A stretch of DNA of 60,427 bases from Oscillospiraceae bacterium (GTDB lineage Bacteria > Bacillota > Clostridia > Oscillospirales > Acutalibacteraceae), in contig SVQE01000008.1 of the NCBI GenBank assembly GCA_015065505.1, positions 1 to 60,427 on the forward strand. The letters are read 5' to 3'. This document shows, piece after piece, positions 13,309 through 59,377 of this stretch (within the stretch, counting starts at the first letter, position 1; every line of letters begins with the position of its first letter). The position numbers were made by a program, and so were the translations under genes. The notes beneath the pieces were generated by a model, which worked only from the letters and a program-made list of their open reading frames with translations, did no database searches and was not told the DNA's origin.

Positions 13309-13393
13309 AATGTGCGCTCCTTGTTTTTGATGATATACTATTATAATACAAGGGTTTGGATAAGTAAAGGGATGTTTATTTTATCTTAAAAAC

Positions 13394-13660
13394 GATGGGG
13401 ATACTCTCGCCGAGAAACAGTTTAAAACAGCCGGGTCGTCAAGAAGCTATCAAAAGCCCCACTGGGGCTTTCTCCCGAAGCCGAGCTGCTGGCACGACAA
13501 AAACAAGACAACGCAGGATACTTGTACCTGCGTTGAGAGGAAAAACATTCGCAGTGATTATTATATATTGCTCAGAACAGATAACAAAGAGCAATATATT
13601 CAATCACGGAGAGTGTTTTGACGAGGAGCTTCTTGTTCTCATCCCTTCCGGTTCGTAGAA
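13394..13660. repeat. Structured intergenic repeat, copy A (variant with replaced hairpin)
   Basis: It starts with the family box GGGGATACTCTCGCCGAGAA plus ACAGTTTAAAAC. The outer stem AAGAAGC (13441-13447) / GCTTCTT (13627-13633) and hairpin AAGCCCC/GGGGCTT follow. The second hairpin of the other copies is interrupted by about 130 bases holding two different hairpins: AACGCAGG/CCTGCGTT, and GTGATT..ATATATTGCTC / GAGCAATATAT..AATCAC. No clear tRNA-like tail is left. Confidence 0.7.
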
Positions 13661-13731
13661 TGGCTCGGCTCTCTGAATGTAGCGCTTTCGTACGAATTTG
13701 GCGCTCTTGTCCAGACTTTTTGGCGAGCATT

Positions 13732-14931
13732 TTACGTTCGGCGCTCTTCTGCGCTGTTGTCCAGATTTCCGTTGTGGTCAAAATTGTGGTCAATTGGAAC
13801 TATTGATAATGATTTATAATTATTAAGAGTGTCCGCTCTTACAATATAATCAAAAATATCTAGTTTTCCTTTTAACATTGTTTCACATGTCAAAAAGATA
13901 CTAGTAGACACTTCAATAGTTTCTTTATTTGTTGATAACGGATCAATGAAATAGCGGATATAATTGTCTTTACTGTTTTGAGCATTCTTTTTTGCAAACT
14001 CCACAGAAATATCAAACGCCCTTTTAATAATATTATTAATAAAAAGAAAAGTCTTTTTTTGTAGTTTGATAATATCAGTAAATGTTAAATTTATATTTTC
14101 AGATAAAATATAATTACATAATTCATCAGAAAAAAATACAAATCTACTTTCATATAGTAAGATTTGATTTTTTGTATGCGTACGTAAGTATTCTTTACCA
14201 TATGGCATACTAACGGCAAATATACCAGCAATTTTTATAAAACAAATGGCGCAAAGTAAAGCAGAATACGCCTCAATCACGTCTTGTATTTTGTCGGGAT
14301 TGGCTTGAATAAGCGTTTTAACGGCAAACCAATCACAAAGAGCTTCTTCAATAAACTCTTTATTTATATCGCCTTCGAAATCTTCTTTCATATATTTTTC
14401 TATTGTTTTTTTAGCGCTTTCAAATTCTCTATTATATGTATCTTGAAACTTGTTTTTGCTTTGTAAATAAATGGAACGATGATACAGTTCATGTCCAAGC
14501 AATATCATGTTTTGCAATTCTCCCATATCCATACATCTAGAGAAATTAAAATTTTTCCAGAACTCAGGCACTATTGGTTCCAGCATATATTCCTCATAGA
14601 GTTGCATAGTAGATACAGTAACATCAAGCATATGATCTAAAGTACATTTGTTAAGCATAAAAAGATAAAAGAGTGCATTGTAGTAATTTGAATATTCAAT
14701 ATTTTTATCAAGCACTAGTGAGTTGCATCTCACAATATATCTTGGAAATTGAGTGTTAAATATGATACAATCGTTCTTCTTATCGTAATGCGTATTACAA
14801 TTGATCGAGTCTTGATAAATTATATTTATATTTTTTACATCCATATTTAGTTTATTGCAGAAATTTTGTAAGCATTCCCTATACACATAATAGTTTTTCC
14901 AAGTTTCAAATTTGTTTCCTGCAACTTTCAT
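13732..14931 (-). CDS. HExxH metallopeptidase-like protein of a conflict module
   Basis: Protein of 399 aa, AT-rich. It contains HELYH at residues 147-151, a zinc-peptidase HExxH motif in a helical context (LLGHELYHRS). EEALCDWFA at 195-203 could supply the third zinc ligand and the Asp seen in M48-like gluzincins. No signal peptide is visible. It starts two bases after the stop of the small EACC1-like gene, so the two are coupled. I infer a protease effector whose partner controls it. The C-terminus ends just before a structured repeat and may have been reshaped by it. Confidence 0.75.
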   Translation of the reverse strand: MKVAGNKFETWKNYYVYRECLQNFCNKLNMDVKNINIIYQDSINCNTHYDKKNDCIIFNTQFPRYIVRCNSLVLDKNIEYSNYYNALFYLFMLNKCTLDHMLDVTVSTMQLYEEYMLEPIVPEFWKNFNFSRCMDMGELQNMILLGHELYHRSIYLQSKNKFQDTYNREFESAKKTIEKYMKEDFEGDINKEFIEEALCDWFAVKTLIQANPDKIQDVIEAYSALLCAICFIKIAGIFAVSMPYGKEYLRTHTKNQILLYESRFVFFSDELCNYILSENINLTFTDIIKLQKKTFLFINNIIKRAFDISVEFAKKNAQNSKDNYIRYFIDPLSTNKETIEVSTSIFLTCETMLKGKLDIFDYIVRADTLNNYKSLSIVPIDHNFDHNGNLDNSAEERRT

Positions 14932-14933
14932 AA

Positions 14934-15323
14934 CTACTTTTTCATGCTTATAAATTCATTAATTGTTTTCTGAATCTTTAAAGATATTGCATTAATATCA
15001 TTTCCTTTTAATGATGAGATATCTGAATTCCTTAAAACGATATATTCTGCACCAGCGGGCGATTTGATAGTAATTGCAATTTCCCCATCATCTTCGTTAC
15101 TTTTTTTGTGTTCTAATTTGTAACTTATCCAATCAGATAGAATTGCAAATAATCCCGTCATTACAGCAGGCGAAAGAGCAATGATTAGTTGAAATATTAT
15201 GCTACCGTCAGCACCAATATTCTGTTCTTCTGTGAAGTATGTACAATAGTTTTTCTCTAATTCTTCAATAAAACGTTCATCAAACCCTTTATCATTGATA
15301 ATAAGTTCATAATGTTCTTGCAT
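14934..15323 (-). CDS. Small membrane protein resembling EACC1
   Basis: Protein of 129 aa with an N-terminal soluble part and one hydrophobic segment (about residues 42-64, IIFQLIIALSPAVMTGLFAI). A DWISYKLEHKK stretch follows, then a predicted beta hairpin (EIAITIKSPAGAEYIVLRN) and a helix. This order (small-residue membrane helix, basic W..L segment, beta hairpin) matches EACC1, the effector-associated constant component 1 described in NTPase-dependent conflict systems. The match is by eye only. The ribosome site is a GGAGG-like stretch. It sits directly before the HExxH gene. Confidence 0.7.
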   Translation of the reverse strand: MQEHYELIINDKGFDERFIEELEKNYCTYFTEEQNIGADGSIIFQLIIALSPAVMTGLFAILSDWISYKLEHKKSNEDDGEIAITIKSPAGAEYIVLRNSDISSLKGNDINAISLKIQKTINEFISMKK

Positions 15324-15490
15324 ATTTAACCTCCAAATAATTTAACTTTTGCCTTCAATAAAAAAATTTAATTATATAGTCTGTATTCTTTACATACAAT
15401 TATTTATGTATCATTACCGTTTGTCAATACAAAAAGCAAAAATATGCATAATAAACGCAAAAAATGATATATAATATTTACAAATGAGGG

Positions 15491-15951
15491 TTGACAAATG
15501 AAAATTAGTTGTTCTCAGTGATGACCTGTGGGATTAAAACTTAGGCTACCTCCGGTATATAATTTAATACTCTAACAATATAAAAGCATTCAAAATATGT
15601 AACGATATTAAAGTTCAAAATTTGAGCATACCCATGCTCACCAAATGGTCATAAACGACTTAAAAGGGTTTTTGAAAAATTTTGTGCGCATTTTGTAACC
15701 GAAAAAGTAACAAAAATTCGGTTCCCGAAAGGCAAGTTTTCACGCCTGACGAGAACCTTTTTTACACTTTTTTCAAAAACTTAAAACTTTTGGTTTACAT
15801 CAGAAATTTTTGCAATTCATCCGATAACACTCCTCTGATGGTGAGTTACACGCAAAACGAAAACTGAACGGATAAATCGCAAATTTGCCAAGTGTAGACC
15901 AAAACTTTTTTGCAGAAAATCGCCTTATAAATCTTGAAAAGATTTTTTCAA
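15491..15951. repeat. 461-bp duplicated noncoding element, left copy
   Basis: It runs from TTGACAAATGAAAAT to GATTTTTTCAA and matches 18390-18850 over the same 461-base length with few or no net indels and roughly 80-85 percent identity by eye. It includes hairpin GAGCAT/ATGCTC, a GGTTC..GAACC hairpin followed by T6, and an end hairpin AATCTTGAAAA/TTTTTTCAAGATT with a T run reading in plus. It lies about 170 bases upstream of the EACC1-like gene. It may be a regulatory region, a noncoding RNA, or a mobile repeat. Confidence 0.8.
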
Positions 15952-16143
15952 GATTTTTTATAAAGGACCTTTTTATGTTAATATCTAGGCAAAAATATAT
16001 AAAAAATATGAGCCATAAACCCACATTATATGTGTTTTTATGGCTCATAAATGGTCTATAATAACTAAAAAGGGATTTTGAAAAATAGTGTACAATTTTT
16101 ACAATTTAAAGAACAGAACAGTATTTTCTAATTATTTTGCTTG
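15952..16143. other. Spacer with partial third copy of the 461-bp element
   Basis: Downstream of the NTPase gene. About 16044-16100 (AAATGGTCTATAATAACT, then AAAAAGGGATTTTGAAAAAT) resembles the middle of the 461-bp element. No gene is seen. Confidence 0.45.
16008..16048 (-). terminator. Terminator of the NTPase-DUF4062 gene
   Basis: Hairpin ATGAGCCATAAA/TTTATGGCTCAT with an inner CACA/TGTG pairing. On the minus strand it is followed by ATTTTTTAT. It lies about 95 bases after the stop. Confidence 0.6.
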
Positions 16144-18270
16144 TTACCAATCAAAGTATTCTTCCAGTGCTTTTGTAATGTCATCAAATTTGTAATAAAA
16201 ATTATGAACCCATGTGTTTTTATCAACAAATTCAGCAAAATAGTATGTTCTTAAATCACGCACAAACGGTCTGTAAATTTCAATGCCTCGTTTCTTATTT
16301 TCGATATAAATGTGTCTTTCGTCCCATAGTTTTCTTAAAATAAATGTAAAAATCGTCTTGCCTGTTTCTAACGCTCTAATAAATTCACACCATGTTATAC
16401 TTAATTCTTTTTCTAAGTTATCATCTTTTATGAATTTATTTGCGTACTCTGCAGCTTTGTCTTGATATAAACTCCCTGAGTACCTACCTCCATATTCTTC
16501 ATTAACAATTAAAATAACAATATCCATTTGCTCTATAGTTCTTAAACATTTGTCATGATTATTTAATCCAGTTTCATCAAATGCAGAATTATCTTCTTCA
16601 TTTATGTAAACATTTTTGAAACCTTTTTCAATTAAGTACTTTTTTAGTTGTGCTCTTTTGGTTTCCATATCTCCACGGCATACAGAACTTATTAGTATTT
16701 TTCTGTCAGTTAGTATTGACTTTTTATCAATATTAGACCTATAGATTATATTATCGCCTACAATAAAGTTAGAGTGTATTGAAAACTCAAGTTTTTTTCT
16801 GTTTCTTATTTCTTGAATATATGAATCTAATGAAGGGTGAATGAAATAAAAATTAGATCTTGGAATATGTAGTTTGTCCAATACAATACCTGTTCCGCAA
16901 GGTAAAAATGTTTGCTTTTTTTCAGTCTCAAAGTTTTGTTGGAATATATATCCTAATAGCCCCATCTTGTATAAAGTGCAAAATGGATGAAAATTATCAG
17001 TATCACAAGACGTTTGGCAATCATTATTACAATTGTTACCATTTAGATAATTAAACTTTCTGCAGATTTCATTAATATCTCTATAACTCAATACATTTGA
17101 ATAGATTAGAGAAAATAGAGTGTCTAATTGTTCCAAAGACAATTCATTTATGAATTTTTCAGTTCTCTCAAGATATTTTTTACATATCTCTGCTGATTTT
17201 TCATTAACAATTTTTCTGAATTCAGATATTTCTATAACTTCTGAACGCAAATAAATACTTTTAAGCATTTCCATGATGTCTCGAGGATTCTTGAGAGTAT
17301 GTCTATAAATATAGTCAAACACAGGTTCTTTTTCACAAGTTTGGATGTGTTCTACATAAGATATGTTTTCTAATGGATTTACAAGATTGTTTTCGTTATA
17401 ACCGATTAATGAAATGTAGTTATTATAAATATTTTTTAAATCATTATATGTATATTCGATTCTTACAATATGGTTTTCCATTTGCTGATTTAATTCGTTT
17501 TCTTTTCCAATTGTAGCCTCGTGTCTAATGGAACAAAAAATTTTAATGTGCTGTGAGAATTTGTGCAATTTTGATATTGCTTCAATTAAACTCGTTTGAG
17601 CATAAGTCCAAAAGATGCGTTTGTATTTACCATGTGTTACTTGCATACTAGGGTCATTTTCGAGACAAACAACCATTGATTCATCTATATTATCGATAAA
17701 CATACACATTTGAAAATGAATCTGTTGATATACAATTATCAGTTTTGGTAACTCCTTAAAAAGCTTATTTAAATCTTTTATACTTAATTGATAAAGAAAA
17801 TTAAAATATTGACAAGGTGTAGTATAAAGTTTATTGTTTAAATACATCTTGCAATCATCATTTAATTCTTCAACATAATCGTTTATTCCTTGATTCTTTA
17901 AAATTGCATTTTTTATTGCAGACAGAGTAATAGAAACTTGCCACAAATCTACCCAATTTTTGTAGTCGGATAAAAAATTGGTAGTAGTTGAATTATACCT
18001 AATACTAGCAATTGAATCAAGCTCTTGGTTTTCAGGTATTAGTAGTGTACCTCTATTTTGCTGCATTAGGACTTTTTTAGCTTTTAGCACAAATGTTTTA
18101 CCGTATCCTTTTGGAGACGAAACGGCAAATATACTACTTTTTGTGAAATCATTGTTTGACAAAAATGTCTTAATAGGGTCAGTTCTATATAATACTTTCA
18201 ACAAGCTTTCATCTAAAGGCATATCGTTAGCATCTACAACAAAATAATTTGATAAAATCTGGTCTATCAT
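16144..18270 (-). CDS. P-loop NTPase with C-terminal DUF4062 (TIR-like) domain
   Basis: Large protein of 708 aa, AT-rich. The N-terminal NTPase has a Walker A-like SSPKGYGKTF at 51-60 and a Walker B-like MFIDNID at 190-196. FCSIRHEA later resembles a sensor motif. The middle is helical with a Cys-rich patch (CNNDCQTSCDTD). Residues about 523-708 match the DUF4062 pattern: ILISSVCRGDMETKRAQL, CLRTIEQMDIVILIVNEEYG, and TWCEFIRALETGKTIF. DUF4062 is a TIR-related fold found in bacterial immune NTPases. I infer a sensor-switch-effector defence protein in the cytoplasm. It faces the same way as the EACC1/HExxH pair. Confidence 0.85.
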   Translation of the reverse strand: MIDQILSNYFVVDANDMPLDESLLKVLYRTDPIKTFLSNNDFTKSSIFAVSSPKGYGKTFVLKAKKVLMQQNRGTLLIPENQELDSIASIRYNSTTTNFLSDYKNWVDLWQVSITLSAIKNAILKNQGINDYVEELNDDCKMYLNNKLYTTPCQYFNFLYQLSIKDLNKLFKELPKLIIVYQQIHFQMCMFIDNIDESMVVCLENDPSMQVTHGKYKRIFWTYAQTSLIEAISKLHKFSQHIKIFCSIRHEATIGKENELNQQMENHIVRIEYTYNDLKNIYNNYISLIGYNENNLVNPLENISYVEHIQTCEKEPVFDYIYRHTLKNPRDIMEMLKSIYLRSEVIEISEFRKIVNEKSAEICKKYLERTEKFINELSLEQLDTLFSLIYSNVLSYRDINEICRKFNYLNGNNCNNDCQTSCDTDNFHPFCTLYKMGLLGYIFQQNFETEKKQTFLPCGTGIVLDKLHIPRSNFYFIHPSLDSYIQEIRNRKKLEFSIHSNFIVGDNIIYRSNIDKKSILTDRKILISSVCRGDMETKRAQLKKYLIEKGFKNVYINEEDNSAFDETGLNNHDKCLRTIEQMDIVILIVNEEYGGRYSGSLYQDKAAEYANKFIKDDNLEKELSITWCEFIRALETGKTIFTFILRKLWDERHIYIENKKRGIEIYRPFVRDLRTYYFAEFVDKNTWVHNFYYKFDDITKALEEYFDW

Positions 18271-18389
18271 ATTTTCACCTCAAAAATAGTTTTTTTATAT
18301 TGTAAATTTAACAGAATACTATTCAATAGAAAATGCAAAAATGTACAAAAAAACGACAAAAAAAGACATTCAAGAACAAAAATTAGGAC

Positions 18390-18850
18390 TTGACAAATGA
18401 AAATCATTTGTTCTCAGGGACAAGCTAGGGGATTAAAATTTAGACCACCCCCCAGTATAAATTTTAATACTCTAACAATATAAAAGCATTCAAAAATGCA
18501 ATGGGATTAAGCTCAAAATTTGGGCATACCATGGGTCACCAAATGATCATAAACAACTTAAAAGGGTTTTTGAAATTTTTTGTGCATATTTTGCAACTGA
18601 AAAAACACCAAAAAATCGACTCCCGAAAGGCAGATTTTCACACATGACGAGAGCCGTTTTATACACTTTTTTCAAAAACATAAAACTTTTGGTTTACATC
18701 AGTAATTTTTACAATTCAGCCGATAACGCTCCTCTGACGGATAGTTATACGTAAAACGAAAACTGAACAGACAAATCGCAAATTTCACAGGTGTAGACCA
18801 ATACTTTTTTGCCGAAAATCGCCTTATAAATCCTGAAAAGATTTTTTCAA
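18390..18850. repeat. 461-bp duplicated noncoding element, right copy
   Basis: Second copy, about 120 bases upstream of the NTPase-DUF4062 start. It has the same orientation relative to its gene as the left copy has to the EACC1 gene. Start, internal T-rich segments and end (GATTTTTTCAA) agree. The GAGCAT hairpin is degenerate here. The remaining bases in 18271-18389 hold the NTPase 5' leader and no gene. Confidence 0.8.
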
Positions 18851-18874
18851 TAAAATTTTGAAAAAGCTACTTAG

Positions 18875-18903
18875 TTGACAAATAATTACAACTGTGGTAT
18901 TCT
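18875..18903 (+). promoter_or_regulatory. Promoter for leader peptide and kinase-like gene
   Basis: TTGACA (18875-18880), a 17-base spacer, then TATTCT (18898-18903). It starts a transcript that carries a leader peptide and an attenuator. Confidence 0.75.
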
Positions 18904-18933
18904 AAACAAAATACTTGAAAGGAACAGCAAATT

Positions 18934-19023
18934 ATGTTTATCTCATCTTATGCAATGAATAGACGAGATCACTCTGCTAGATATATGGTCAGGGTTAGTT
19001 TGCTGTACTCATTTTCGGAATAG
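18934..19023 (+). CDS. 29-aa leader peptide of an attenuator
   Basis: It opens MFISSYAMNRRDHSARYM and ends LLYSFSE, then TAG. AAAGGA lies upstream. Its 3' codons cover TGCTGTAC (19001-19008), which is complementary to GTACAGCA (19058-19065) in the following terminator. A ribosome stalled early in the peptide would free 19001-19008 to pair and weaken the terminator. This is the architecture of antibiotic- or amino-acid-responsive attenuators. Confidence 0.6.
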   Translation: MFISSYAMNRRDHSARYMVRVSLLYSFSE

Positions 19024-19048
19024 TATTATCAGTAAAAGATTTTACAAT

Positions 19049-19083
19049 GCCGTTGGTGTACAGCACCGATGGCTTGTTTTTTT
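19049..19083 (+). terminator. Attenuator terminator before the kinase-like gene
   Basis: The 10-bp stem GCCGTTGGTG/CACCGATGGC (two wobble pairs, loop TACAG) is followed by TTGTTTTTTT. It ends right at the GGAGG ribosome site of the next gene, so termination would silence that gene. Confidence 0.8.
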
Positions 19084-19095
19084 GGAGGCGAGAAA

Positions 19096-19644
19096 ATGAA
19101 ATTAGTATTTATTATCGGCAATGCAGCAGTCGGTAAAATGACGGTAGGACAAGAACTGACAAAAATAACAGATTTAAGACTTTTTCATAATCATATGAGC
19201 ATAGAACCTATATTGGAAATTTTCGGTGATTTTAATGGGAATGCAATTAAAAGATTTCGTGAAATAATCTTTGAAGAATTTGCTAAAAGCGGTAAATACG
19301 GATTAATCTTCACTTATATGTGCGCATTTGACCATCAGGATTGGGATTATATTGAGCATATAAAAAGCATTTTTGAGCCGTATAATACTGAATTTTATTA
19401 TGTTGAGCTTGTTGCTCCGCAGAGCGTAAGGCTTGAGAGGAACAACAGCGAAAACCGATTGAAAAACAAACCGTCAAAGCGAAATATCGAATTGTCGAAC
19501 AAAAGGTTAATTGATGATGACAGCAATTACCGTATTGAAAGTTACGATGGGGAAATAGCATTTGATAATTATATCAAGATTGATAATACAAATCTTTCAG
19601 CGGAAGAAACTGCAAAAATGATTAAAGAACGATTTGATTTATAG
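19096..19644 (+). CDS. P-loop kinase-like protein (AAA_33/shikimate kinase-like)
   Basis: Cytoplasmic protein of 182 aa. Its Walker A is GNAAVGKMTVG, close to the N-terminus. A later RLERNNSENRLKNKPS stretch resembles the LID of nucleotide or small-molecule kinases. ATG at 19096 is chosen from GGAGG seven bases upstream. Substrate unknown. The leader peptide plus attenuator ahead of it is typical of inducible drug-resistance genes, so phosphorylation of an inhibitor is one possibility. Other small-molecule kinases are equally compatible. Confidence 0.8.
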   Translation: MKLVFIIGNAAVGKMTVGQELTKITDLRLFHNHMSIEPILEIFGDFNGNAIKRFREIIFEEFAKSGKYGLIFTYMCAFDHQDWDYIEHIKSIFEPYNTEFYYVELVAPQSVRLERNNSENRLKNKPSKRNIELSNKRLIDDDSNYRIESYDGEIAFDNYIKIDNTNLSAEETAKMIKERFDL

Positions 19645-19655
19645 GAAGTGATATA

Positions 19656-19790
19656 ATGAATTACACTTTTAGGAATTGCACAAATAATGATATTGAGTTT
19701 ATATTAAATTTAAAAGAGTTGTGTCTTAAATGGTACATTGAAAAAATATACGGTTGGGACAAAGAAGTTCAACGCCAAAAAACAGTTTAA
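19656..19790 (+). pseudogene. Truncated GNAT acetyltransferase N-terminus
   Basis: 44 codons from ATG, 11 bases after the kinase-like stop, with AGGAAGTG upstream. The protein MNYTFRNCTNNDIEFILNLK continues with KWYIEKIYGWDKEVQRQ. This is the usual start of a GNAT protein (beta1-alpha1-alpha2, Y..KI.GWD...Q). The frame then enters the structured repeat array at ACAGTTTAAAAC and stops. The acetyl-CoA site is missing. The repeat therefore replaced or displaced the rest of the gene. Confidence 0.7.
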
Positions 19791-20297
19791 AACATCAGGC
19801 ACGTCAAGAAGCTATCAAAAGCCCCACTGGGGCTTTCTCCCGAAGGCGAGCTGCTCACACAGCTCGCCTTCGGAGCTTCTTGTTCTCGTCCCTTCCGTTG
19901 CGTACCAAAAAACAGGTCATCGAATGAACTTAAAAACGAAGGGGATACTCTCGCCGAGAAACAGTTTAAAACGTTAGGCACGTCAAGAAGCTATCAAAAG
20001 CTCCACCGGAGCTTTCTCCCGAAGCCGAGCTGCTCACACAGCTCGCCTTCGGAGCTTCTTGTTCTCGTCCCTTCCGTTGCGTACCAAAAAACAGGTCATC
20101 GAATGATCTTAAAAACGCAGGGGATACTCTCGCCGAGAAACAGTTTAAAACATCAGGGTCGTCAAGAAGCTATCAAAAGCCCCACCGGGGCTTTCTCCCG
20201 AAGCCGAGCTGCTCACACAGCTCGCCTTCGGAGCTTCTTGTTCGAGTCCGCTTCCGGCGTACACAAAAACGAGGCATCGATTGATGCCTCGTTTTTG
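19773..20297. repeat. Tandem array of the structured repeat (179-bp period, about 3 copies)
   Basis: ACAGTTTAAAAC recurs at 19782, 19961 and 20140, a 179-base period. Each unit has outer stem AAGAAGC/GCTTCTT enclosing hairpin 1 (AAGCCCC/GGGGCTT, or AAGCTCC/GGAGCTT in unit 2) and hairpin 2 (CGAAG.CGAGCTG/CAGCTCG.CTTCG). A tail like a tRNA 3' end follows (GTCCCTTCCGTTGCGTACCA, or GTTCGAGTCCGCTTCCGG in unit 3). Units 2 and 3 open with GGGGATACTCTCGCCGAG. Unit 1 lacks that part because it abuts the GNAT fragment. No protein is encoded. 20298-20520 holds no convincing gene. Confidence 0.85.
20265..20296 (+). terminator. Terminator closing the repeat array
   Basis: AAAAACGAGGCATC/GATGCCTCGTTTTT with a 4-base loop, symmetrical on both strands. 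It sits where a tRNA gene would have its terminator, just after the tRNA-like tail. Confidence 0.75.
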
Positions 20298-20521
20298 GTA
20301 CAGTTAATGACTCAGTATTGAAACAGGCTGCATTACCTTGTAGCAGGTTCAATTCGACGATTATATTATCATCTTTGCAATACTGCACATGATTAAAGAG
20401 CTTAAAGGCAGCCGAACCAATGTTGTTGAATTAGATAATGGTGGGGTTGAAATTACCATAGGAAATTCAGTTTACTCAGTTGAGAGAGATTTTTAATTAT
20501 CACAGCATTAAGCAGTTAGTA

Positions 20522-21556
20522 TTATCCTAAAAAGTATGATGATACCGCTTTAATCTCTTCTGTTTCACCGAATTTGCTCCTTGCAAGTTCATAACAAGAT
20601 TTCTCAAAGGGGAATTTTTGAATTAATGACACTAATGCTGGTGTAAGTTTATCTTCAGGAAACATCGGGTTTTGAAGATTTAATATCATTGTTTCAAATT
20701 TCTTATCGGTTTTTGTTTCTATTCCTGCTATAATTCCACTACTTTTAAGAGTATTAATCAGGGTGTAGAATGTGTTGAAATAATCATTATAAACCTCTTG
20801 GAAAAATACATCTTGTTTAAACTTTGAAAATACTTCTGCTTTTTCCTCTTGTGTCATTCTTGAATTAATCTCAGCAAGTTTACCCACTAACCCCATTCCG
20901 ATATTAAAAGCTTCTGCTTGTGCAGCACCTTTCATTGCACCTTTAAAGCCGAAACCACCGCCAGTCATTTGTACTGAGCCACCAACAGCGTTTCCTAAAT
21001 TCTTTGCATTTTGATTTTTGGTTGCTTCAATGCCTGCAAGTGTTGCATATGAAATAGCTGCTTGATTGTAATTATCACAATGATTACCTGTGAATGTTTC
21101 AATATCACTATTAAATACACCAAAAGGAAGAAGTAAACTATAAGCCCTGCCTGCCATTGGTGTTAATCCCTCAAGATACATATCAGCAAAGAAATTTACA
21201 AATGAATCAAAATCATTTACACAGTTATAGTATTTGAATTTGAATCTATTTGTGTAGTATTCTGCAGCTTCTGCAAATTTTAATTTGTACATCAAACAAG
21301 TGTCAAGCTCAGCAGATACCTTGATTGTACTTCCGTTAATTGAGAATTCTTTTTCAGAACCTTGAAGAGGTGACCACTGCGCTGGTTCAGGCACATCATA
21401 TTGAGGGAATGAATCATACGGAGGAAATGTTTTTGGTTCTTCAAGATGTTTTGCCTCCTGGAAAAAATCTTTTCCTATTACATTGTTCATAGTTTTTCCT
21501 AATTTGTTGCTTACATCAACATATTTATTAAAACCGTCTCTTAAATTAAATGCCAT
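20522..21556 (-). CDS. Hypothetical protein with Gly-rich central segment
   Basis: Protein of 344 aa that I do not recognise. The N-terminal third is polar and Pro/Asp-rich. Residues about 195-240 hold a small-residue stretch (GNAVGGSVQMTGGGFGFKG, then AFNIGMGLVGKL) that could insert in a membrane or form a glycine-zipper helix. The C-terminal part is helical. No signal peptide. It lies 13 bases after a 65-aa XRE repressor in the same direction, so it is probably controlled by it. A toxin or phage-derived role is possible but unsupported. Confidence 0.7.
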   Translation of the reverse strand: MAFNLRDGFNKYVDVSNKLGKTMNNVIGKDFFQEAKHLEEPKTFPPYDSFPQYDVPEPAQWSPLQGSEKEFSINGSTIKVSAELDTCLMYKLKFAEAAEYYTNRFKFKYYNCVNDFDSFVNFFADMYLEGLTPMAGRAYSLLLPFGVFNSDIETFTGNHCDNYNQAAISYATLAGIEATKNQNAKNLGNAVGGSVQMTGGGFGFKGAMKGAAQAEAFNIGMGLVGKLAEINSRMTQEEKAEVFSKFKQDVFFQEVYNDYFNTFYTLINTLKSSGIIAGIETKTDKKFETMILNLQNPMFPEDKLTPALVSLIQKFPFEKSCYELARSKFGETEEIKAVSSYFLG

Positions 21557-21569
21557 AATAAAAACTCCT

Positions 21570-21767
21570 TTATTTTAATTCAATAAATAATTCAGGACTT
21601 ACATCTAACGCTATGCATATAGCCTTTAAATCTTCTGCATATAAAGTCCTTTTACCGTTCATAATTGCATTGAATGTAACAGGGGATATGCCTGCCTTAT
21701 CTGCAATTACCTTTTGTTTATATCCGTTTTTGTCTATGTATTCTCGTACTTTCTCATAGACAAGCAT
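21570..21767 (-). CDS. Small XRE-family HTH repressor (65 aa)
   Basis: Single Cro/CI-type helix-turn-helix (KQKVIADKAGISPVTFNAIM, then GKRTLYAEDLKAICIALD). It has no other domain. It is transcribed with the Gly-rich hypothetical gene from a promoter overlapped by repeated TACAGGAWTTCT boxes, and it probably binds those boxes. Confidence 0.85.
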   Translation of the reverse strand: MLVYEKVREYIDKNGYKQKVIADKAGISPVTFNAIMNGKRTLYAEDLKAICIALDVSPELFIELK

Positions 21768-21788
21768 ATATAAACATCACTTCCTTTC

Positions 21789-21858
21789 AGAATTCCTGTA
21801 TTTTATTTAATTGTAATATAGATTTCCTGTATTGTCAATATTTATATACAGGATTTCT
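21789..21858. promoter_or_regulatory. Three operator-like iterons in the divergent region
   Basis: ATACAGGAATTCTG (minus, about 21788-21801), ATACAGGAAATCT (minus, about 21819-21831) and ATACAGGATTTCT (plus, about 21846-21858) overlap or flank the minus-strand promoter. The spacing of about 30 bases suggests repressor dimers on neighbouring helical faces. Confidence 0.55.
21810..21838 (-). promoter_or_regulatory. Promoter of XRE/Gly-rich operon
   Basis: TTGACA (21833-21838), 17-base spacer, TACAAT (21810-21815). Confidence 0.75.
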
Positions 21859-21869
21859 TGATTAAAATA

Positions 21870-21897
21870 TTGATTTTTACAGTATACCGTGTATAAT
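21870..21897 (+). promoter_or_regulatory. Promoter of the divergent XRE regulator
   Basis: TTGATT (21870-21875), 16-base spacer, TATAAT (21892-21897). The spacer contains TACAGTATACCGTGTA, a near-palindrome that could be a second operator. Confidence 0.7.
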
Positions 21898-21916
21898 CAA
21901 ACAAGAGGTGATTATA

Positions 21917-22225
21917 TTGAGGTATGAAATCGGCGCACGAATTCGTCAGTACCGCGAACTGAGAGGTTTAAGCCAAAAAGAACTTGCTGAAATGATTAAT
22001 ATCAGCAACAATCGGCTTTCCAATTGGGAACAAGGAATTAACAGACCCAACGCAGATATACTTGCTTCTCTTTGTAAAGCCTTAGAAGTATCTCCAAGTG
22101 AATTACTAAACATTCATCTTGATACTGACAATCTAACCGAACAAGAACGAAGACTAATTACAGCGTACCGTTCAAAACCTGATTTACAAAAATCAGTCAA
22201 TATCTTACTCGGCATTGAAGAATAG
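21917..22225 (+). CDS. XRE-family transcriptional regulator (102 aa)
   Basis: N-terminal HTH (YRELRGLSQKELAEMINISN, then RLSNWEQGINRPNADILASL) and a short helical C-terminus for dimerisation. I favour a TTG start at 21917 because GAGGTG lies six bases upstream. A GTG at 21908 overlaps that ribosome site. It is divergent from the other repressor, giving a two-repressor arrangement like a lysogeny switch. Confidence 0.85.
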   Translation: MRYEIGARIRQYRELRGLSQKELAEMINISNNRLSNWEQGINRPNADILASLCKALEVSPSELLNIHLDTDNLTEQERRLITAYRSKPDLQKSVNILLGIEE

Positions 22226-22345
22226 TTATGTATACCTTTCCGTTTTAATATCGGAAAGGTTTAATTTATTTGAAAGCTTTTGAAAACTAATTATAAATGT
22301 AGTGATATGTGGAAATTTTAAAGAATTATGTATTATATAATTAAA

Positions 22346-22371
22346 AAAGAGAGTCCGAAGACTCTCTTAGA
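22346..22371 (-). terminator. Terminator downstream of the tRNA-Arg/repeat unit
   Basis: GAGAGTC/GACTCTC stem with a TTCG loop on the minus strand, followed by T6. Confidence 0.7.
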
Positions 22372-22383
22372 TGCCAAAACGCA

Positions 22384-22613
22384 GGGGATACTCTCGCCGA
22401 GGAACAGTTTAAAACATCGGGGAACAAAGCAAATCAGGCAGGGCGTCGAACCCTGCCTGATTTGAACGCCGGAAGGGACTCTCTTCTCAACTATCGAAAG
22501 GTCCACCGGACCTTTCTCCCAATCGCGGCACTTTCTGCGCCGCTCTTGGAGTTCGTTTCGAGCCCCTTCCTGGAGGCGCACCAAAAAAGGATACCCGTTT
22601 GGGTATCCTTTTT
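22384..22613. repeat. Structured repeat, copy E, facing tRNA-Arg
   Basis: The box GGGGATACTCTCGCCGAGGA with ACAGTTTAAAAC is followed by a perfect 14-bp hairpin (CAAATCAGGCAGGG/CCCTGCCTGATTTG). An outer stem GGAAGGG.CTC/GAG.CCCTTCC encloses AAAGGTCC/GGACCTTT and GCGGC/GCCGC. The end TTTCGAGCCCCTTCC plus GGCGCACCA mirrors the tRNA-Arg 3' end across the shared terminator. The spacer 22226-22345 holds no gene. Confidence 0.75.
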
Positions 22614-22614
22614 T
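22583..22614 (-). terminator. Terminator of tRNA-Arg (bidirectional)
   Basis: AAAAGGATACCC/GGGTATCCTTTT with a 4-base loop, directly after the encoded CCA. Confidence 0.85.
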
Positions 22615-22690
22615 GGTACGCCGGAAGGGACTCGAACCCCCGACCTTCTGGTTCGTAGCCAGACACTCTATCCAACTGAGCTACCGGCGC
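22614..22690 (-). tRNA. tRNA-Arg (anticodon ACG)
   Basis: 77-base cloverleaf on the minus strand. The acceptor is GCGCCGG/CCGGCGT (first pair G-U). The D-arm is AGCTCAGTTGGATAGAGT, the anticodon arm TCTGG-CTACGAA-CCAGA gives ACG, and the T-arm is GGGGGTTCGAGTCCC. CCA is encoded. ACG is usually edited to ICG by TadA. Confidence 0.96.
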
Positions 22691-26952: not shown

Positions 26953-27150
26953 TTTATCGCGGAGGCGATAAATCATAATTCAGTGACCAGTGACCAGTGG
27001 ACAGTGACCAGTGGACAGTGACCGGTTATATAATTGCCGTGCGCAGCACCAAATACTGACCACTGACCACTGACAACTAAATTGTGATTTGCGAGCCCAA
27101 ATGGCTCGACAAATCACAATTTATTAACTTTTAAACAATAAACCAATAAT
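26953..27150. repeat. Nested palindromes and CAGTGACC tandem repeats after feoB
   Basis: Three layers. GATTTATCGC/GCGATAAATC sits at the feoB stop. CAGTGACCAGTGGA tandem units face inverted ACTGACCACTGACC units across about 45 bases. AAATTGTGATTTG/CAAATCACAATTT has an inner CGAGCC/GGCTCG. No gene is seen. Confidence 0.6.
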
Positions 27151-31878: not shown

Positions 31879-33667
31879 TTTCAGAACTGATAAGCTTCAG
31901 CATTCAATCATTTCAAATGTTTTCTATTTCTTGAAAATAATGTTTAAAATTTCGCCCGTGCTTGTTATATGCGAGTGCATTTTCGGAATTTTAACAAGGC
32001 TTCCGACAAGGCTTATTTCGGTTATCGGCGTTAAATATGTTATTGATGTTATTTCAAGCGGCGATGATAAAATGAAAATAGTTTATGCCGTTATTGCGAT
32101 TGCGGCAATACTGCTTTTCAATGAGGTTGCAAACGCCCTTTACCGTGAGCTTTATTTCAGCGTTAATTTTGAAAAGCTCTCCTCGGGCATTCTTGAAATG
32201 CTGTTCAAAAAAGCCAAGGAGCTCGACCTTGAAAGCTACGACGACCCCGATTTTTACAACAATTTCATTCTTGTTATAGATTCCTCGGGCGGCAGAATAA
32301 CAAGGGTTTTAGGTCTTGTTCAGGGCTATATCGGCGAGGTGTTCTCGCTTATTGCAATAGGCTCGATTCTCTTTGCCATAGACCCGATTTGCCTTGTTAT
32401 CATTCTTGCGGTTGTTGCAATATTTACCCCCGTAAGCAAGAAAATAGGTATGCTTCAGTCCAAAAGGCAGATTGAAAACAACAAGCTCCACAGAAGAGCG
32501 GATTATTTTGCACGAGTTTTCTATCTTCAGGACTATGCAAAAGAGGTAAGAATGAACAACATCAAGCCGCTGCTTCTGGGTAAATACGATGAGGCAGCCG
32601 ACGCGGTTGTTGATAATCAGAAAAAATATGTAAGCAAAATTGATTTAATCTATTTCTTCCAGGAAACGGGAGTACAGATTGTCGGCTTTATGTTTTTGCT
32701 TCCGCTCTATCTCGGCTACTGCGTGCTGAAAACAAAAACGCTTTCGGCAGGCGATTTCGTTGCAACCTTCAACGGTGCGTTTTCGATTGCAACCTCGTTT
32801 TCGTTCTTAACCGTCGGCGTTGTTCGTAATTTCTCCGAGCAGGCAAAGCTTATCGAGAAATACAGGGAATTCTTATCAAGGGGCAAAAAGATTTACGGCG
32901 GCGAAAACGAAACAAAGTCAGCCGAGCCGAAAACCATTGAAATTAAAAATGTTTCATTTACTTATCCCGGCAACGACCACCCAACGCTTAAAAACATCAA
33001 TTTAACCATCCGCCCGAAAGAAAAAATAGCCCTCGTCGGCTATAACGGGGCAGGTAAAACAACGCTCACCAATCTTATGATGAGGCTCTATGATGTTTCG
33101 GACGGTGAAATTCTGATTGACGGCAAGGATATACGCGACGAAACGCTTGAATCGCATAAAAACAGATTTGCCGCGGTGTTCCAGGACTTCCAGATTTTTG
33201 CCGCAACAATAGGCGAAAATGTTGCGCTTGATTATAATGTTGATGAAGAGGGCGCAAGAAAAGCGCTTGATAACAGCGGCTTTTCAAAGGAGCTTCCGAA
33301 CGGAATGAAGTCAAATCTTCTGCGCGAATTTGACGACGACGGAATGATGATGAGCGGCGGTGAAGGGCAGAAGGTTGCAATAGCAAGAGCCTTCTATAAG
33401 CACTGCCCCTATGTTATTCTTGATGAGCCCTCGGCAAACCTCGACCCGATTGCGGAATATAATCTCAATCAGGCAATGATGAGCGCTGCGGAGGATAAAA
33501 CGGTTGTTTTCATTTCGCACAGACTTTCAACAACGGTTAATGCCGATGTTATCTATGTTATGGAAAACGGCGAAATCATCGAACGCGGCAGCCACGAAGA
33601 GCTTATGAAGCTCGGCGGAACATATGCATATATGTTCAACCTCCAGGCTGAGAAATATCAGCAATAG
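31871..33667 (+). CDS. ABC exporter half-transporter B
   Basis: 598 aa, same layout as its neighbour. Walker A is GYNGAGKTTL, signature MSGGEGQKVAIAR, Walker B region YVILDEPSANLDP and HRLS switch. ATG at 31871 is chosen for the GGGGGTGAG ribosome site inside the end of gene A. An earlier in-frame start inside gene A would add an unrelated N-terminus. Substrate unknown. Confidence 0.92.
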   Translation: MHDFRTDKLQHSIISNVFYFLKIMFKISPVLVICECIFGILTRLPTRLISVIGVKYVIDVISSGDDKMKIVYAVIAIAAILLFNEVANALYRELYFSVNFEKLSSGILEMLFKKAKELDLESYDDPDFYNNFILVIDSSGGRITRVLGLVQGYIGEVFSLIAIGSILFAIDPICLVIILAVVAIFTPVSKKIGMLQSKRQIENNKLHRRADYFARVFYLQDYAKEVRMNNIKPLLLGKYDEAADAVVDNQKKYVSKIDLIYFFQETGVQIVGFMFLLPLYLGYCVLKTKTLSAGDFVATFNGAFSIATSFSFLTVGVVRNFSEQAKLIEKYREFLSRGKKIYGGENETKSAEPKTIEIKNVSFTYPGNDHPTLKNINLTIRPKEKIALVGYNGAGKTTLTNLMMRLYDVSDGEILIDGKDIRDETLESHKNRFAAVFQDFQIFAATIGENVALDYNVDEEGARKALDNSGFSKELPNGMKSNLLREFDDDGMMMSGGEGQKVAIARAFYKHCPYVILDEPSANLDPIAEYNLNQAMMSAAEDKTVVFISHRLSTTVNADVIYVMENGEIIERGSHEELMKLGGTYAYMFNLQAEKYQQ

Positions 33668-33759
33668 TGGACAGTGAATAGTGGTTAGTGGACAGTGGAT
33701 AGTGGTTAGTGGATAGAAAAAAGAGGACGGATGCTTCCGTCCTCTTTTTGCAACATTAA

Positions 33760-33930: not shown

Positions 33931-34680
33931 ATGGCAAGACAAAAACGTGCAAAGAGCGAAACCGGAATATATCATGTTATGCTGCGCGGAATTAACAAAC
34001 AACAGGTGTTTTACGATAATGACGATTACTGTATGTTCATTGATATTCTTTCCAAGGTTAAGAACACATCGGGTTTTAAACTCTATGCTTACTGTTTAAT
34101 GAATAATCATGTTCACTTATTAATACAGGAAGGCGACGAGCCTCTTGAAAAGGTGTTTCAGCGATTTGGAGATGCTTTCATATATTGGTATAATATAAAA
34201 TATGACCGAATTGGCGGAATATTCCAGGGAAGATATAAGAGCATTCCGGTTAACGATGATGAGTACTTCATATCGGTATTAAGATACATTCATCAGAATC
34301 CGGTGAAGGCAGGAATTGCAAAGCGTTGTTCCGACTATGAATTCAGCAGTTATAATGCGTATTTTAACAACAGCCATTTTGTTAATACCGGATTTGCACT
34401 CGAACTTATTGGCGTCAGCGAGTTTAAACGTATTCATACTGAAATGTGTGATGCTGTGCACCTTGATATTTCAGATGAACCTAACGTAAGGATTTCGGAT
34501 GCATTGGCAAAGCAGCTTATCCTCAGAAGAACAGGCTGTGCGTCGTTGGAAGAGTTTAAACAGCTTCCGATACAAACGCAAAAAGAATATTCAAAATACT
34601 TGCGCAAAGAGGGAATTGCTGCCCGTCAGATAATGAGGCTGACAGGCGTTTCGCAAAGAATAGCATTAAGTGAAGATTAA
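33931..34680 (+). CDS. REP-associated tyrosine transposase (RAYT) 1
   Basis: 249-aa Y1 (IS200-like HUH) transposase. It has the MARQKRAKSETGIYHVMLRG start, the HUH motif NNHVHLLIQE, GRYKSIPV, and the YFISVLRYIHQNPVKAGIA helix that carries the catalytic Tyr. A long C-terminal helical extension is typical of RAYTs. GAGGTGATGAA precedes the ATG. GTATACA-armed palindromes stand on both sides. RAYTs nick and move cognate hairpins; they are domesticated single-copy transposases in many bacteria. Confidence 0.92.
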   Translation: MARQKRAKSETGIYHVMLRGINKQQVFYDNDDYCMFIDILSKVKNTSGFKLYAYCLMNNHVHLLIQEGDEPLEKVFQRFGDAFIYWYNIKYDRIGGIFQGRYKSIPVNDDEYFISVLRYIHQNPVKAGIAKRCSDYEFSSYNAYFNNSHFVNTGFALELIGVSEFKRIHTEMCDAVHLDISDEPNVRISDALAKQLILRRTGCASLEEFKQLPIQTQKEYSKYLRKEGIAARQIMRLTGVSQRIALSED

Positions 34681-55987: not shown

Positions 55988-56635
55988 TTAATAATTATAA
56001 TAAAAGTCGGCATCATCAACATAGAATTGATAAGGTGTATCGTCAAACTTATCTATCATATAAGATGCTTCCAATTCATATTCGTCAACAACCAAAGTAC
56101 CTGATACCTTGATTTCTTTTCCGATTACGTCGGTGTCCCATTCTTCTTTATAGTAATCTTCGTGCACTACATCTCTCTTATCAATGAATTCTTCAAGATA
56201 AAATCCTCTTTCTGTCTGAACGTATCCGTAGTAGTAATCTCCAAAGTAAGCTGTACTCATCAAAGACGACAGCTCCAAGTCTTTAATTCTGTCTATGAAA
56301 GATATTGTATATCCGTCATAGTTTCTATACTCTTTGCAAAACTCCTCATAATCGAGAGATACTACTTCGTCTGTATCCGGATTTGTTAAGCAAATTTGCT
56401 CACTGCGTTGTTCCAAGACTGATGTAAGAATGCCCAATACTATAGGAGCCAACGCAAAAATCACCGCTAAAACTATTACTACAATAAATGCAGGCGTTTT
56501 TACAAACGGCTTTTTGTCAATAGGGGTCTGACCCCTATTGACATTTAAATGCTTTGTTGGTATACTAAAAATAGAATATGAGGTGATTTTATGGCTAGAC
56601 AAAAAAGAATTAAAAGTGAAAGCGGAATATACCAT
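55988..56635 (-). CDS. Single-TM hypothetical protein with 5' end disturbed by a REP palindrome
   Basis: The last about 170 residues look genuine: one TM helix (FIVVIVLAVIFALAPIVLGI), then an acidic, Tyr-rich exterior ending DDADFYYNY. The first about 45 residues are read through the RAYT 2 5' end and the palindrome at 56515-56543 (NVNRGQTPIDKK). No ATG with a ribosome site exists before the TM helix. The true start was probably lost, so this may be a pseudogene. Coordinates show the full open frame. Confidence 0.5.
   Translation of the reverse strand: MVYSAFTFNSFLSSHKITSYSIFSIPTKHLNVNRGQTPIDKKPFVKTPAFIVVIVLAVIFALAPIVLGILTSVLEQRSEQICLTNPDTDEVVSLDYEEFCKEYRNYDGYTISFIDRIKDLELSSLMSTAYFGDYYYGYVQTERGFYLEEFIDKRDVVHEDYYKEEWDTDVIGKEIKVSGTLVVDEYELEASYMIDKFDDTPYQFYVDDADFYYNY
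56515..56543. repeat. REP-like palindrome, arm TGTCAATA
   Basis: Core GGGGTCTGACCCC, 47 bases before RAYT 2 and inside the disturbed hypothetical gene. Confidence 0.85.
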
Positions 56636-57337
56636 GTTATGTTACGCGGTATCAATAAACAGCAGGTGTTTTTTGATGACGATGACTATTATGTGTTTTT
56701 GAATTCACTTTCAAAATGCAAAACTGTTTCGGGGTTTAAACTCTATGCATATTGTTTTATGAATAATCATGTGCATCTTCTTATTCAGGAATGCGATGAA
56801 CCAATTGATAAGATTTTTAAAAGATTGGGAGATAGTTTTATTTATTGGTATAACTTAAAATATGACAGAATAGGTGGGGTGTTTCAGGGAAGATATAAAA
56901 GCATACCTGTTGAAGGGGATGAATATTTTATATCCGTATTAAGATATATTCATCAGAATCCCGTAAAGGCAGGTATTGTAAAACGTTGTTCAGACTATGA
57001 ATTCAGCAGCTATAATGCTTATTTTGAAGAAACTGAGATTGTAGACACAGAATTTGCAAAAGAATTAATCGGGATTAAAGAATTTAAAAGAATTCACAAG
57101 GAAATATGTAACGAACATCATCTTGATATTGACGATAAACATTCATTAAAGCTTTCGGATATGGATGCAAAACGGATTATTTATAAACGTACGGGTTGTA
57201 AATCACCGGAAGAGTTTGTGCGCTTATCCGTGCCTAAACAAAAAGAATATGTAAGAACACTTCGTGATGAAGGCGTTTCAGTGAGACAGATAATTCTTTT
57301 TACCGGAGCATCACAAAGAACAGCTACTCTCAGATAG
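56591..57337 (+). CDS. REP-associated tyrosine transposase (RAYT) 2
   Basis: 248 aa, close paralogue of RAYT 1. MARQKRIKSESGIYHVMLRG, HUH motif NNHVHLLIQE, GRYKSIPVEGDEYFISVLRY and IHQNPVKAGI. The C-terminal helices differ more between the paralogues than the catalytic half. GAGGTGA precedes the ATG. Flanked by TGTCAATA-armed palindromes, not GTATACA ones. Confidence 0.92.
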   Translation: MARQKRIKSESGIYHVMLRGINKQQVFFDDDDYYVFLNSLSKCKTVSGFKLYAYCFMNNHVHLLIQECDEPIDKIFKRLGDSFIYWYNLKYDRIGGVFQGRYKSIPVEGDEYFISVLRYIHQNPVKAGIVKRCSDYEFSSYNAYFEETEIVDTEFAKELIGIKEFKRIHKEICNEHHLDIDDKHSLKLSDMDAKRIIYKRTGCKSPEEFVRLSVPKQKEYVRTLRDEGVSVRQIILFTGASQRTATLR

Positions 57338-59201: not shown

Positions 59202-59377
59202 TGCATAGTGCATAAGGCATAGTGCATAGTCGGCGGACGAAATGGGCGTTGCCTTCACAGCACACGGGGACGTTCCTCCGCCGAACCTTAATTATTTGAA
59301 TTGCGTTCTGAGGTGCGTCCCCATGGCGGACGAATAGACGTATATTTAAAAGCACAGTTGAGAAAAAGGAAGTTTAT
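59202..59377. repeat. GTGCATAGT repeats and GGGGACG hairpin element, copy 2
   Basis: GTGCATAGTGCATAAGGCAT tandem units, then 59236-59340 matching 41440-41545. Its stem is GGGGACG.TTCCTCC/GAGG.TGCGTCCCC with different loop bases. It ends 37 bases before rmuC. Confidence 0.65.

Follow-up and report, generated by a model that had tools for sequence, protein, structure and literature searches.

Introduction

Eukaryotic SINEs and the retrotransposons that target tRNA genes are short repeats linked to tRNA, and insertion near a tRNA gene is regarded as a safe haven. MITEs carry no genes, are dispersed and are accompanied by a target duplication, and integron attC sites and the terminal hairpins of parvoviruses are single-strand DNA hairpins with internal arms. 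In bacteria, the REP and REPIN sequences are described in a section of PMC3733652 as small non-coding DNA hairpins of high copy number, found mostly downstream of genes; the REPs are given there as palindromes of 20-40 bp with a GTAG or CGTC tag, the CGTC-tagged class being apparently without a dedicated transposase (parts of PMC3116915 and PMC8266576 are further sources on REP and RAYT). Genomic islands and phages residing in tRNA genes use the 3' part of the tRNA and regenerate the target, according to sections of PMC4383910 and PMC1762012, and the latter reports that phage Ms6 recombines in the T-loop of tRNA-Ala.

Here we describe a family of structured repeats which is widespread in one group of gut bacteria, is mobile, and is tied to the ends of tRNA genes by copied arms. 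It was encountered in a stretch of 60,427 nt from an Oscillospiraceae bacterium (contig SVQE01000008.1 of assembly GCA_015065505.1), called the window throughout, in which an earlier note had pointed to a repeat array of three-way-junction fold and had proposed for it either a structured RNA or a SINE-like mobile repeat.

Results

The array and the other copies within the window

The array consists of three units with a 179-nt period, as the earlier note had reported; Tandem Repeats Finder gave 2.9 copies of this period at 19773-20284, with 92% matches. Its features are:

19773..20297, + strand: array of three elements of subfamily B, period 179 nt (Tandem Repeats Finder, covariance-model matches)
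19801..19885, + strand: core of unit 1, hairpins H1 and H2 (covariance-model match, E 4.6e-15)
19980..20064, + strand: core of unit 2 (covariance-model match, E 9.7e-15)
20159..20243, + strand: core of unit 3 (covariance-model match, E 8.8e-15; fold z -5.8)
20240..20263, + strand: 3' arm of unit 3, in which T-loop, T-stem and acceptor end of tRNA-Arg(ACG) recur almost unchanged in sense orientation (GTTCGAGTCCGCTTCCGGCGTACA vs GTTCGAGTCCCTTCCGGCGTACCA)
20265..20296, no strand assigned: terminator-like palindrome 3' of the array (read from the sequence)

The core of the element is formed by the two hairpins set in a junction, about 70-80 nt in all, and energy folding of unit 3 returned a three-way junction of -51.1 kcal/mol. 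H1 reads GCCCC/GGGGC in units 1 and 3, GCTCC/GGAGC in unit 2 and GGTCC/GGACC in the element at 22480, exactly the versions that had been listed before. A single C:C mismatch is present in H2 of units 2 and 3 (CCGAAGCCGAGC vs GCTCGCCTTCGG). No opposite-strand tRNA gene is located within 450 nt of the array at 19773-20297, and none adjoins it now. The conserved 5' box, which had been thought to frame the element as such, marks one subfamily only, and its first bases look, from their sequence, like a decayed tRNA-derived arm. The boxes of subfamily B were also considered as protein-coding, and inspection by eye revealed no conserved frame.

Both further copies that had been placed at 13394 and 22384 were found as well, in a less simple form than assumed: the former is a decayed copy starting at 13383, and the latter belongs to a composite site at 22376-22583, composed in turn of a 5'-box relic, another hairpin and an element of subfamily A.

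13383..13657, + strand: decayed copy of subfamily B with interrupted H2 (blast-type match and covariance model)
22376..22422, + strand: relic of the subfamily-B 5' box (blast, 96%)
22467..22481, + strand: 5' arm of the subfamily-A element, 15 nt exactly reverse-complementary to the 3' part of tRNA-Arg
22480..22561, + strand: subfamily-A core facing tRNA-Arg (covariance-model match, E 3.1e-20)
22560..22583, + strand: 3' arm of the subfamily-A element, repeating the 3' end of tRNA-Arg in sense with some changes, ACCA included
22614..22690, - strand: tRNA-Arg(ACG), the intact target gene (Rfam tRNA match in the window)

The 15-nt 5' arm of the element at 22480, CGCCGGAAGGGACTC, occurs also at 22619, inside the tRNA-Arg gene, and the DNA fold of this element together with its arms has a z of -4.0. 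The main part of the decayed copy spans 13383-13490, its 3' end 13625-13657; a fragment of the tRNA-Arg anticodon loop (GGTTCGTAG at 13650) directly adjoins its 3' arm. This fragment is followed by GAATGGCTCGGCTC at 13657, and the same junction is present in loci L038 and L106. The region from about 13650 to 22690 is a possible genomic island in tRNA-Arg(ACG); it encloses a gene for a DUF4062-domain protein of 708 aa (16144-18270, - strand). Elsewhere in the window, Tandem Repeats Finder detected 7-base minisatellites with the related units CAGTGAC, ATAGTGG and TAGTGCA (26981-27023, 33664-33716 and 59199-59230).

Distribution of the family

A covariance model, the approach recommended in the earlier note, was built from 37 cores, and it detects 37 copies in the source genome (2.3 Mb, 89% complete). 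Among 40 genomes of the genus, each at least 90% complete, 23 gave matches at E 1e-4 and 17 gave none, the highest copy counts being 22, 19, 17 and 16. With filters stricter than those of the genus scan, at which weak matches are lost, matches were obtained in 5 of 295 genomes sampled from the order (the source genome and four genomes from three other families) and in 4 of 391 sampled from the class (the source genome and three others with one weak match each, at E 1.7e-6 to 5.1e-5). ARAGORN found a tRNA in 9 of the 20 loci taken from the four order genomes, and the same arm design recurs, as judged by eye, in many of these 20 loci.

A core pattern matched 75 stretches in named genomes, whose titles read Eubacterium, Ruminococcaceae, Oscillospiraceae, Clostridia or similar and, once, Paludibacteraceae; the animals named as sources in such titles are all ruminants (roe deer, red deer, sheep, goat). 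The match in the MAG labelled Paludibacteraceae (L119) is perhaps due to a binning error. No match was obtained with an exact core pattern among viral contigs, with the array as query among plasmids, or with the copy at 22470-22600 as query among phages. The Rfam check, which had likewise been recommended, returned only tRNA for the whole window at the gathering threshold; for eight loci, one of them that of the array, searched at E up to 1, tRNA alone passed the gathering score, and the other families stayed far below theirs (the best was MIR9563, E 6.4e-4). A literature search that mostly lacked coverage of subscription journals brought up no account of such an element.

Paired changes in the core

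Covariation in the core is very strong. In the 37 aligned cores 98.1% of cells pair, and 120 two-sided changes were counted with no one-sided change, at a covariation score of 0.507, compared to 0.132 +/- 0.014 for shuffled alignments and at most 0.124 for slid ones; in 34 rows of this alignment the extraction had imposed pairing on four of the seven H2 pairs (columns 40-43), but not on H1. The joint changes that had been noticed by inspection are borne out for H1, whereas in H2 the C:C mismatch of units 2 and 3 departs from them.

This covariation is weaker ground than it seems for the conclusion previously drawn from it, namely direct evidence for a selected structure. In 135 copies, 670 of 675 H1 pairs are Watson-Crick, the remainder being one G.U, one A.C and three others, while in 122 tRNAs taken from these loci the acceptor and T stems together contain 117 G.U in 1464 pairs (8%). 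In energy folds of whole cores (52 of 56, four long ones being left out) G.U accounted for 10 of 1071 pairs on the + strand and for 43 of 1108 on the opposite strand, against 327 of 2979 for tRNAs, a contrast milder than that in H1. One position of H1 is G-C in 67 copies and C-G in 59. The near-pure Watson-Crick composition of H1 speaks for DNA hairpins or template switching rather than for a selected RNA, and it fits a hairpin that is recognised or copied as DNA. Template switching in replication has been proposed, in a part of PMC8794818, to create and maintain perfect stems; since it can keep stems perfect, covariation alone is no proof of a selected RNA. A hammerhead-type ribozyme was considered too, and its motif was seen neither by eye nor by Rfam.

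Position relative to tRNA genes and origin of the arms

An opposite-strand tRNA or tmRNA is present within 450 nt downstream of 25 of the 37 source-genome copies, the element lying antisense behind the 3' end of the RNA gene, and in 18 of these 25 the gap between the end of the model and the RNA gene is 52-64 nt. The copy at C77:21436-21524 of the source genome (L178) faces the tmRNA, the 3' end of which is tRNA-like. No intact opposite-strand tRNA or tmRNA was found within this distance for the other 12 copies: two are at tRNA 3' halves (L172, L173), the 13383 copy is at the tRNA-Arg fragment, one is at gyrB, two are at contig ends, three are the array units and three are relic-like. A larger set comprised 110 distinct cores from 120 loci and the window. 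In 70 of them the nearest tRNA is on the opposite strand and at most 400 nt downstream, and in four it is further off; three cores were scored as having it upstream, and these also have an opposite-strand tRNA just downstream. There was no tRNA gene in the locus of the remaining 33, several of which continue into the 3' portion of a tRNA. For the 77 cores with a tRNA in the locus, the nearest one was never on the element's own strand.

While the core of H1 and H2 is constant, the outer arms vary with the adjoining tRNA. The 5' arm was compared with the terminal 20 nt of the adjoining tRNA in 76 copies where that tRNA ends in CCA: on average 17.0 positions agree, compared to 10.4 for other types; 52 copies reach 18-20 matches, and in 68 the own tRNA is matched at least as well as every other type. 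The eight copies with a better match to another type include L050, with 9 of 20 to its own. The 3' arm, read in sense from position 59, shares with the own tRNA an exact run of 6.4 nt on average (1.3 nt with other tRNAs) and fits it best, ties counted, in 54 of the 76 copies; in 10 there is no run of at least 4. In the subfamilies of loci L238-L241 the 3' arm reaches inward past position 57 and includes the whole T-arm. Some copies are located at the 3' ends of protein genes, named by eye from the reading frame as groEL (L027), lepA (L033), gyrB (L211) and serC (L242), and there the 3' arm repeats the end of the adjoining gene. The tRNA-like 3' end described in the earlier note does match tRNA, but as a copy of the adjoining gene, changing from copy to copy, and not as an inherited part. 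A 3' guide RNA of the TnpB type was considered and put aside, as the match between 3' arm and target is in most copies no longer than 5-10 nt.

Insertion scars, empty sites and movement

A second copy of the last 20 nt (at most 2 mismatches) was found within 420 nt of 67 tRNA genes; a looser count gave a second 3'-end copy in 68 of 146 tRNA genes, 13 of them without the core pattern, both counts referring to fetched loci, most of which were chosen for holding an element. The native flank outside the outer repeat is available for three insertions, L031, L084 and L142. Their direct repeats, of 49, 51 and 46 nt respectively with one mismatch each in L084 and L142, span position 57 through CCA and the terminator, and the T-loop is interrupted at position 56/57. 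Because the tRNA 3' end and terminator are duplicated, the tRNA survives the insertion. The inserts measure 89, 89 and 97 nt and end in an inverted copy of the T-stem of about 8-9 nt, after which L142 has a few unmatched bases; in L142 this copy is the true complement of the 3' strand of the T-stem (CAGGG), not its 5' strand (CGGGG). L077 and L130 are similar, but lie within a truncated outer element, whose arm is in the left flank, and other loci have shorter repeats or tandem units. In L034 two whole elements stand tail to tail as a long palindrome.

Sites with and without the element can be compared at 20 tRNA-Met loci beside a gene that we take to be yhhN-like: six are filled, 12 are empty, one (L144) bears a short scar and one is too short. 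The tRNA and the gene have the same direction in 16 of them (four filled, ten empty, the scarred and the short one) and are convergent in four (two filled, two empty). Loci L142 (filled), L129 (empty) and L144 (scarred) look like one and the same site, because the start of the following gene, compared by eye, is common to all three.

Relationships between cores were analysed on a 70-nt segment of 65 copies from 22 genomes and 29 tRNA types. For 20.0 of the 65 copies the closest core was in the same genome at a different tRNA type, compared to 5.1 +/- 2.4 (maximum 12.2) with shuffled genome labels. For 8.8 it was at the same tRNA type in another genome (1.6 +/- 1.4 when shuffled), which indicates that part of the family is inherited in place. 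The tRNA-Thr(GGT) and tRNA-Gly(GCC) copies of the source genome have an identical H2 and differ in H1 and in the arms.

Loci L007-L009, with insertions in H2, were considered as autonomous forms and set aside; L008 has about 120 extra nt and no gene in them, and the insertions of L007 and L009 leave the contig. Other structured inserts, with a CCGGTGG-type hairpin and a different, often longer body, were seen behind tRNA genes in L127 (about 2460-2650), L133 (about 2434-2640), L020, L057, L153-L155 and L196; these are possible sister families.

Candidate enzymes

Fifteen carriers with at least 5 copies were compared with the 17 genomes without a match, nine genomes with 1-4 copies being left out. 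Reverse transcriptase (PF00078, RVT_1, E 1e-5) was found in 4 of the 15 carriers and 6 of the 17 non-carriers, and it is absent from the source genome with its 37 copies, an absence which is not absolute in a genome 89% complete; the retro-route implied by the comparison with SINEs finds no support here. Y1_Tnp occurs in 8 of 15 and 8 of 17, its long-frame, RAYT-like form of about 220-300 aa in six carriers and two non-carriers. Cas1 (PF01867; 1 of 15 and 4 of 17) does not point to casposon or Cas1 integration, nor does the DEDD transposase of IS110 (PF01548; 0 of 15 and 1 of 17) point to a bridge-RNA system. None of the four tracks the element across these genomes. The window itself contains two RAYT-like genes, at 33931-34680 and 56591-57337, both on the + strand (NF047646, 79.3 and 71.4 bits, cut-off 80). 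They are flanked by GGGGTCAGACCCC palindromes, not by the element.

Discussion

We interpret the family as a non-coding, non-autonomous mobile hairpin element with arms copied from its target, and we put the probability of this reading at roughly 0.7. It is based on the target-matching arms, the direct repeats, the fixed orientation, the filled and empty sites and the spread between tRNAs; the 17 of 40 genus genomes that do without the element and the nearly pure Watson-Crick pairing of H1 are further points in its favour. Points against it are that none of the four enzyme families compared tracks the element, that 12 of the 37 source-genome copies have no intact opposite-strand tRNA or tmRNA within 450 nt, that some arms fit another tRNA type better than their own, and that part of the family is inherited in place. 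As no enzyme was found, we file the element as a variant of miniature mobile DNA.

None of the systems compared here offers a complete parallel. Like REP and REPIN, the element is a small non-coding hairpin present in many copies, mostly 3' of genes, and several subfamily-B copies bear CGTC at the foot of a stem; in contrast to a tagged palindrome of 20-40 nt, it folds into a three-way junction, its core measures about 70-80 nt and contains two hairpins, and it has target-copied arms, a preference for tRNA and direct repeats of about 50 nt, and neither the two RAYT-like genes of the window nor the Y1_Tnp counts reveal a RAYT gene flanked by it. With the islands and phages of tRNA genes it shares the use of the tRNA 3' part including the T-loop and the regeneration of the target gene, as seen in the junction at 56/57 and the duplicated 3' end, but there is no integrase or cargo inside, one core serves many tRNAs, and an inverted target copy is present. 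The tRNA sequence of SINEs is ancestral, whereas the arms of the element come from the target, matching the local tRNA and not a common one, and no association with reverse transcriptase was seen. MITEs differ by their fixed terminal inverted repeats, in place of which the element has outer ends that follow the target, and by a duplication of few nucleotides instead of about 50; attC sites and parvovirus hairpins differ by the cassette or replicon that they serve. Of the earlier proposal, what stands is a structured, dispersed, mobile repeat tied to tRNA; the retro-route and the inherited tRNA part find no support.

In a plausible course of events, the moving part would be the core, a segment of about 70-80 nt in which a short stem bears the two hairpins. 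Oriented antisense to the tRNA gene, it would split the T-loop (sense ...TTC / RA...) at the junction of positions 56 and 57. A duplication of about 50 nt, starting at position 57 and taking in CCA and the terminator, would leave the tRNA with a complete 3' end, and through this preservation the end of a tRNA gene would serve as a safe haven. At the far end of the core the T-stem of the target would be repeated once more, in inverted form and mostly over 5-10 nt, sometimes over more, so that the target supplies the stem of a hairpin and the element its loop. We infer that a nicked or broken end at position 57 may be extended over the core, that the extended end may snap back and copy its own freshly made arm, and that it may re-enter the chromosome about 50 nt upstream, near the terminator; a DNA rather than an RNA intermediate, and the participation of any enzyme, would likewise be assumptions of this scheme. 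Extension, snap-back and re-entry together would explain how the element is oriented, where its arms and the direct repeat come from and why the tRNA stays intact; a simple snap-back from position 57 does not explain the 3' arms of L238-L241, which extend beyond it. That target-templated hairpin copying constitutes a new class of mobile DNA, in which only the core travels, the stem is built from each new target and the 3' end of that target is duplicated, is a tentative proposal, to which we would give somewhat less than even odds; it would allow one gene-less element to colonise many tRNA genes, the tmRNA and some protein-gene 3' ends and leave them unbroken.

Part of the same evidence could be produced without any dedicated enzyme. 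Forks stalled, or ends broken, at the hairpins of tRNA genes and terminators might copy the core passively, switching through T-stem microhomology into an existing element and then back with new arms. This process would yield perfect Watson-Crick stems, inverted copies of the target and repeats whose length varies somewhat (its proposed part in creating and maintaining perfect hairpins is set out in a section of PMC8794818), and it agrees with the failure of the four candidate enzyme families to track the element; it leaves unexplained why one specific core with conserved feet and loop occupies 37 sites, and why its presence within one genus is patchy, and we hold it to be a possible but doubtful account. 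Cassettes moved in trans by tyrosine integrases, with the tRNA T-loop as the attachment site, would suit direct repeats running from the T-loop to the 3' end, and the use of T-loops by integrases has a precedent in Ms6 in tRNA-Ala (PMC1762012, in part). Against them, each tRNA kind would need its own att core, and 29 tRNA types are represented among 65 copies; moreover, copies with the same H2 carry different arms, and an inverted target copy is not known to be an integrase product, which makes this explanation unlikely.

The unchanging orientation, the regular distance to the RNA gene (52-64 nt for 18 of the 25), the conserved fold and some inheritance at the same tRNA would also be expected of a functional structured RNA or cis-element acting on the adjoining tRNA, through terminator insulation or antisense control. 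Such a function is difficult to reconcile with the lack of a match in 17 of 40 genus genomes and the empty sites, with tandem and decayed copies, with an H1 nearly devoid of G.U pairs, and with copies at the 3' ends of gyrB, serC, groEL and lepA, as these genes were named by eye; we consider it improbable. Least can be said for a SINE-like retroelement inserted by target-primed reverse transcription. Target duplications of about 50 nt would agree with it, and the arms start with TGG opposite the CCA end of the tRNA, which resembles a retroviral primer-binding site; yet no PF00078 match (E 1e-5) was found in 11 of 15 carriers, including the source genome with 37 copies at 89% completeness, and we regard this route as very unlikely.

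If the reading as a mobile hairpin element with target-copied arms is correct, the element would be a bacterial safe-haven parasite of tRNA genes, convergent with the tRNA-targeting transposons of eukaryotes and far simpler. Its scar, a direct repeat of about 50 nt together with an inverted target copy, fits no transposition class compared here, and a demonstration of target-templated hairpin copying would establish a new kind of mobile DNA. The family would also carry a warning, as processes at the DNA level can give rise to perfect 'compensatory' covariation, which is then not necessarily a proof of functional RNA. Should the proposed interpretation hold, the element would provide a testable case for how hairpin DNA spreads, and the polymorphic sites in dozens of related species are material in which the process may be caught.
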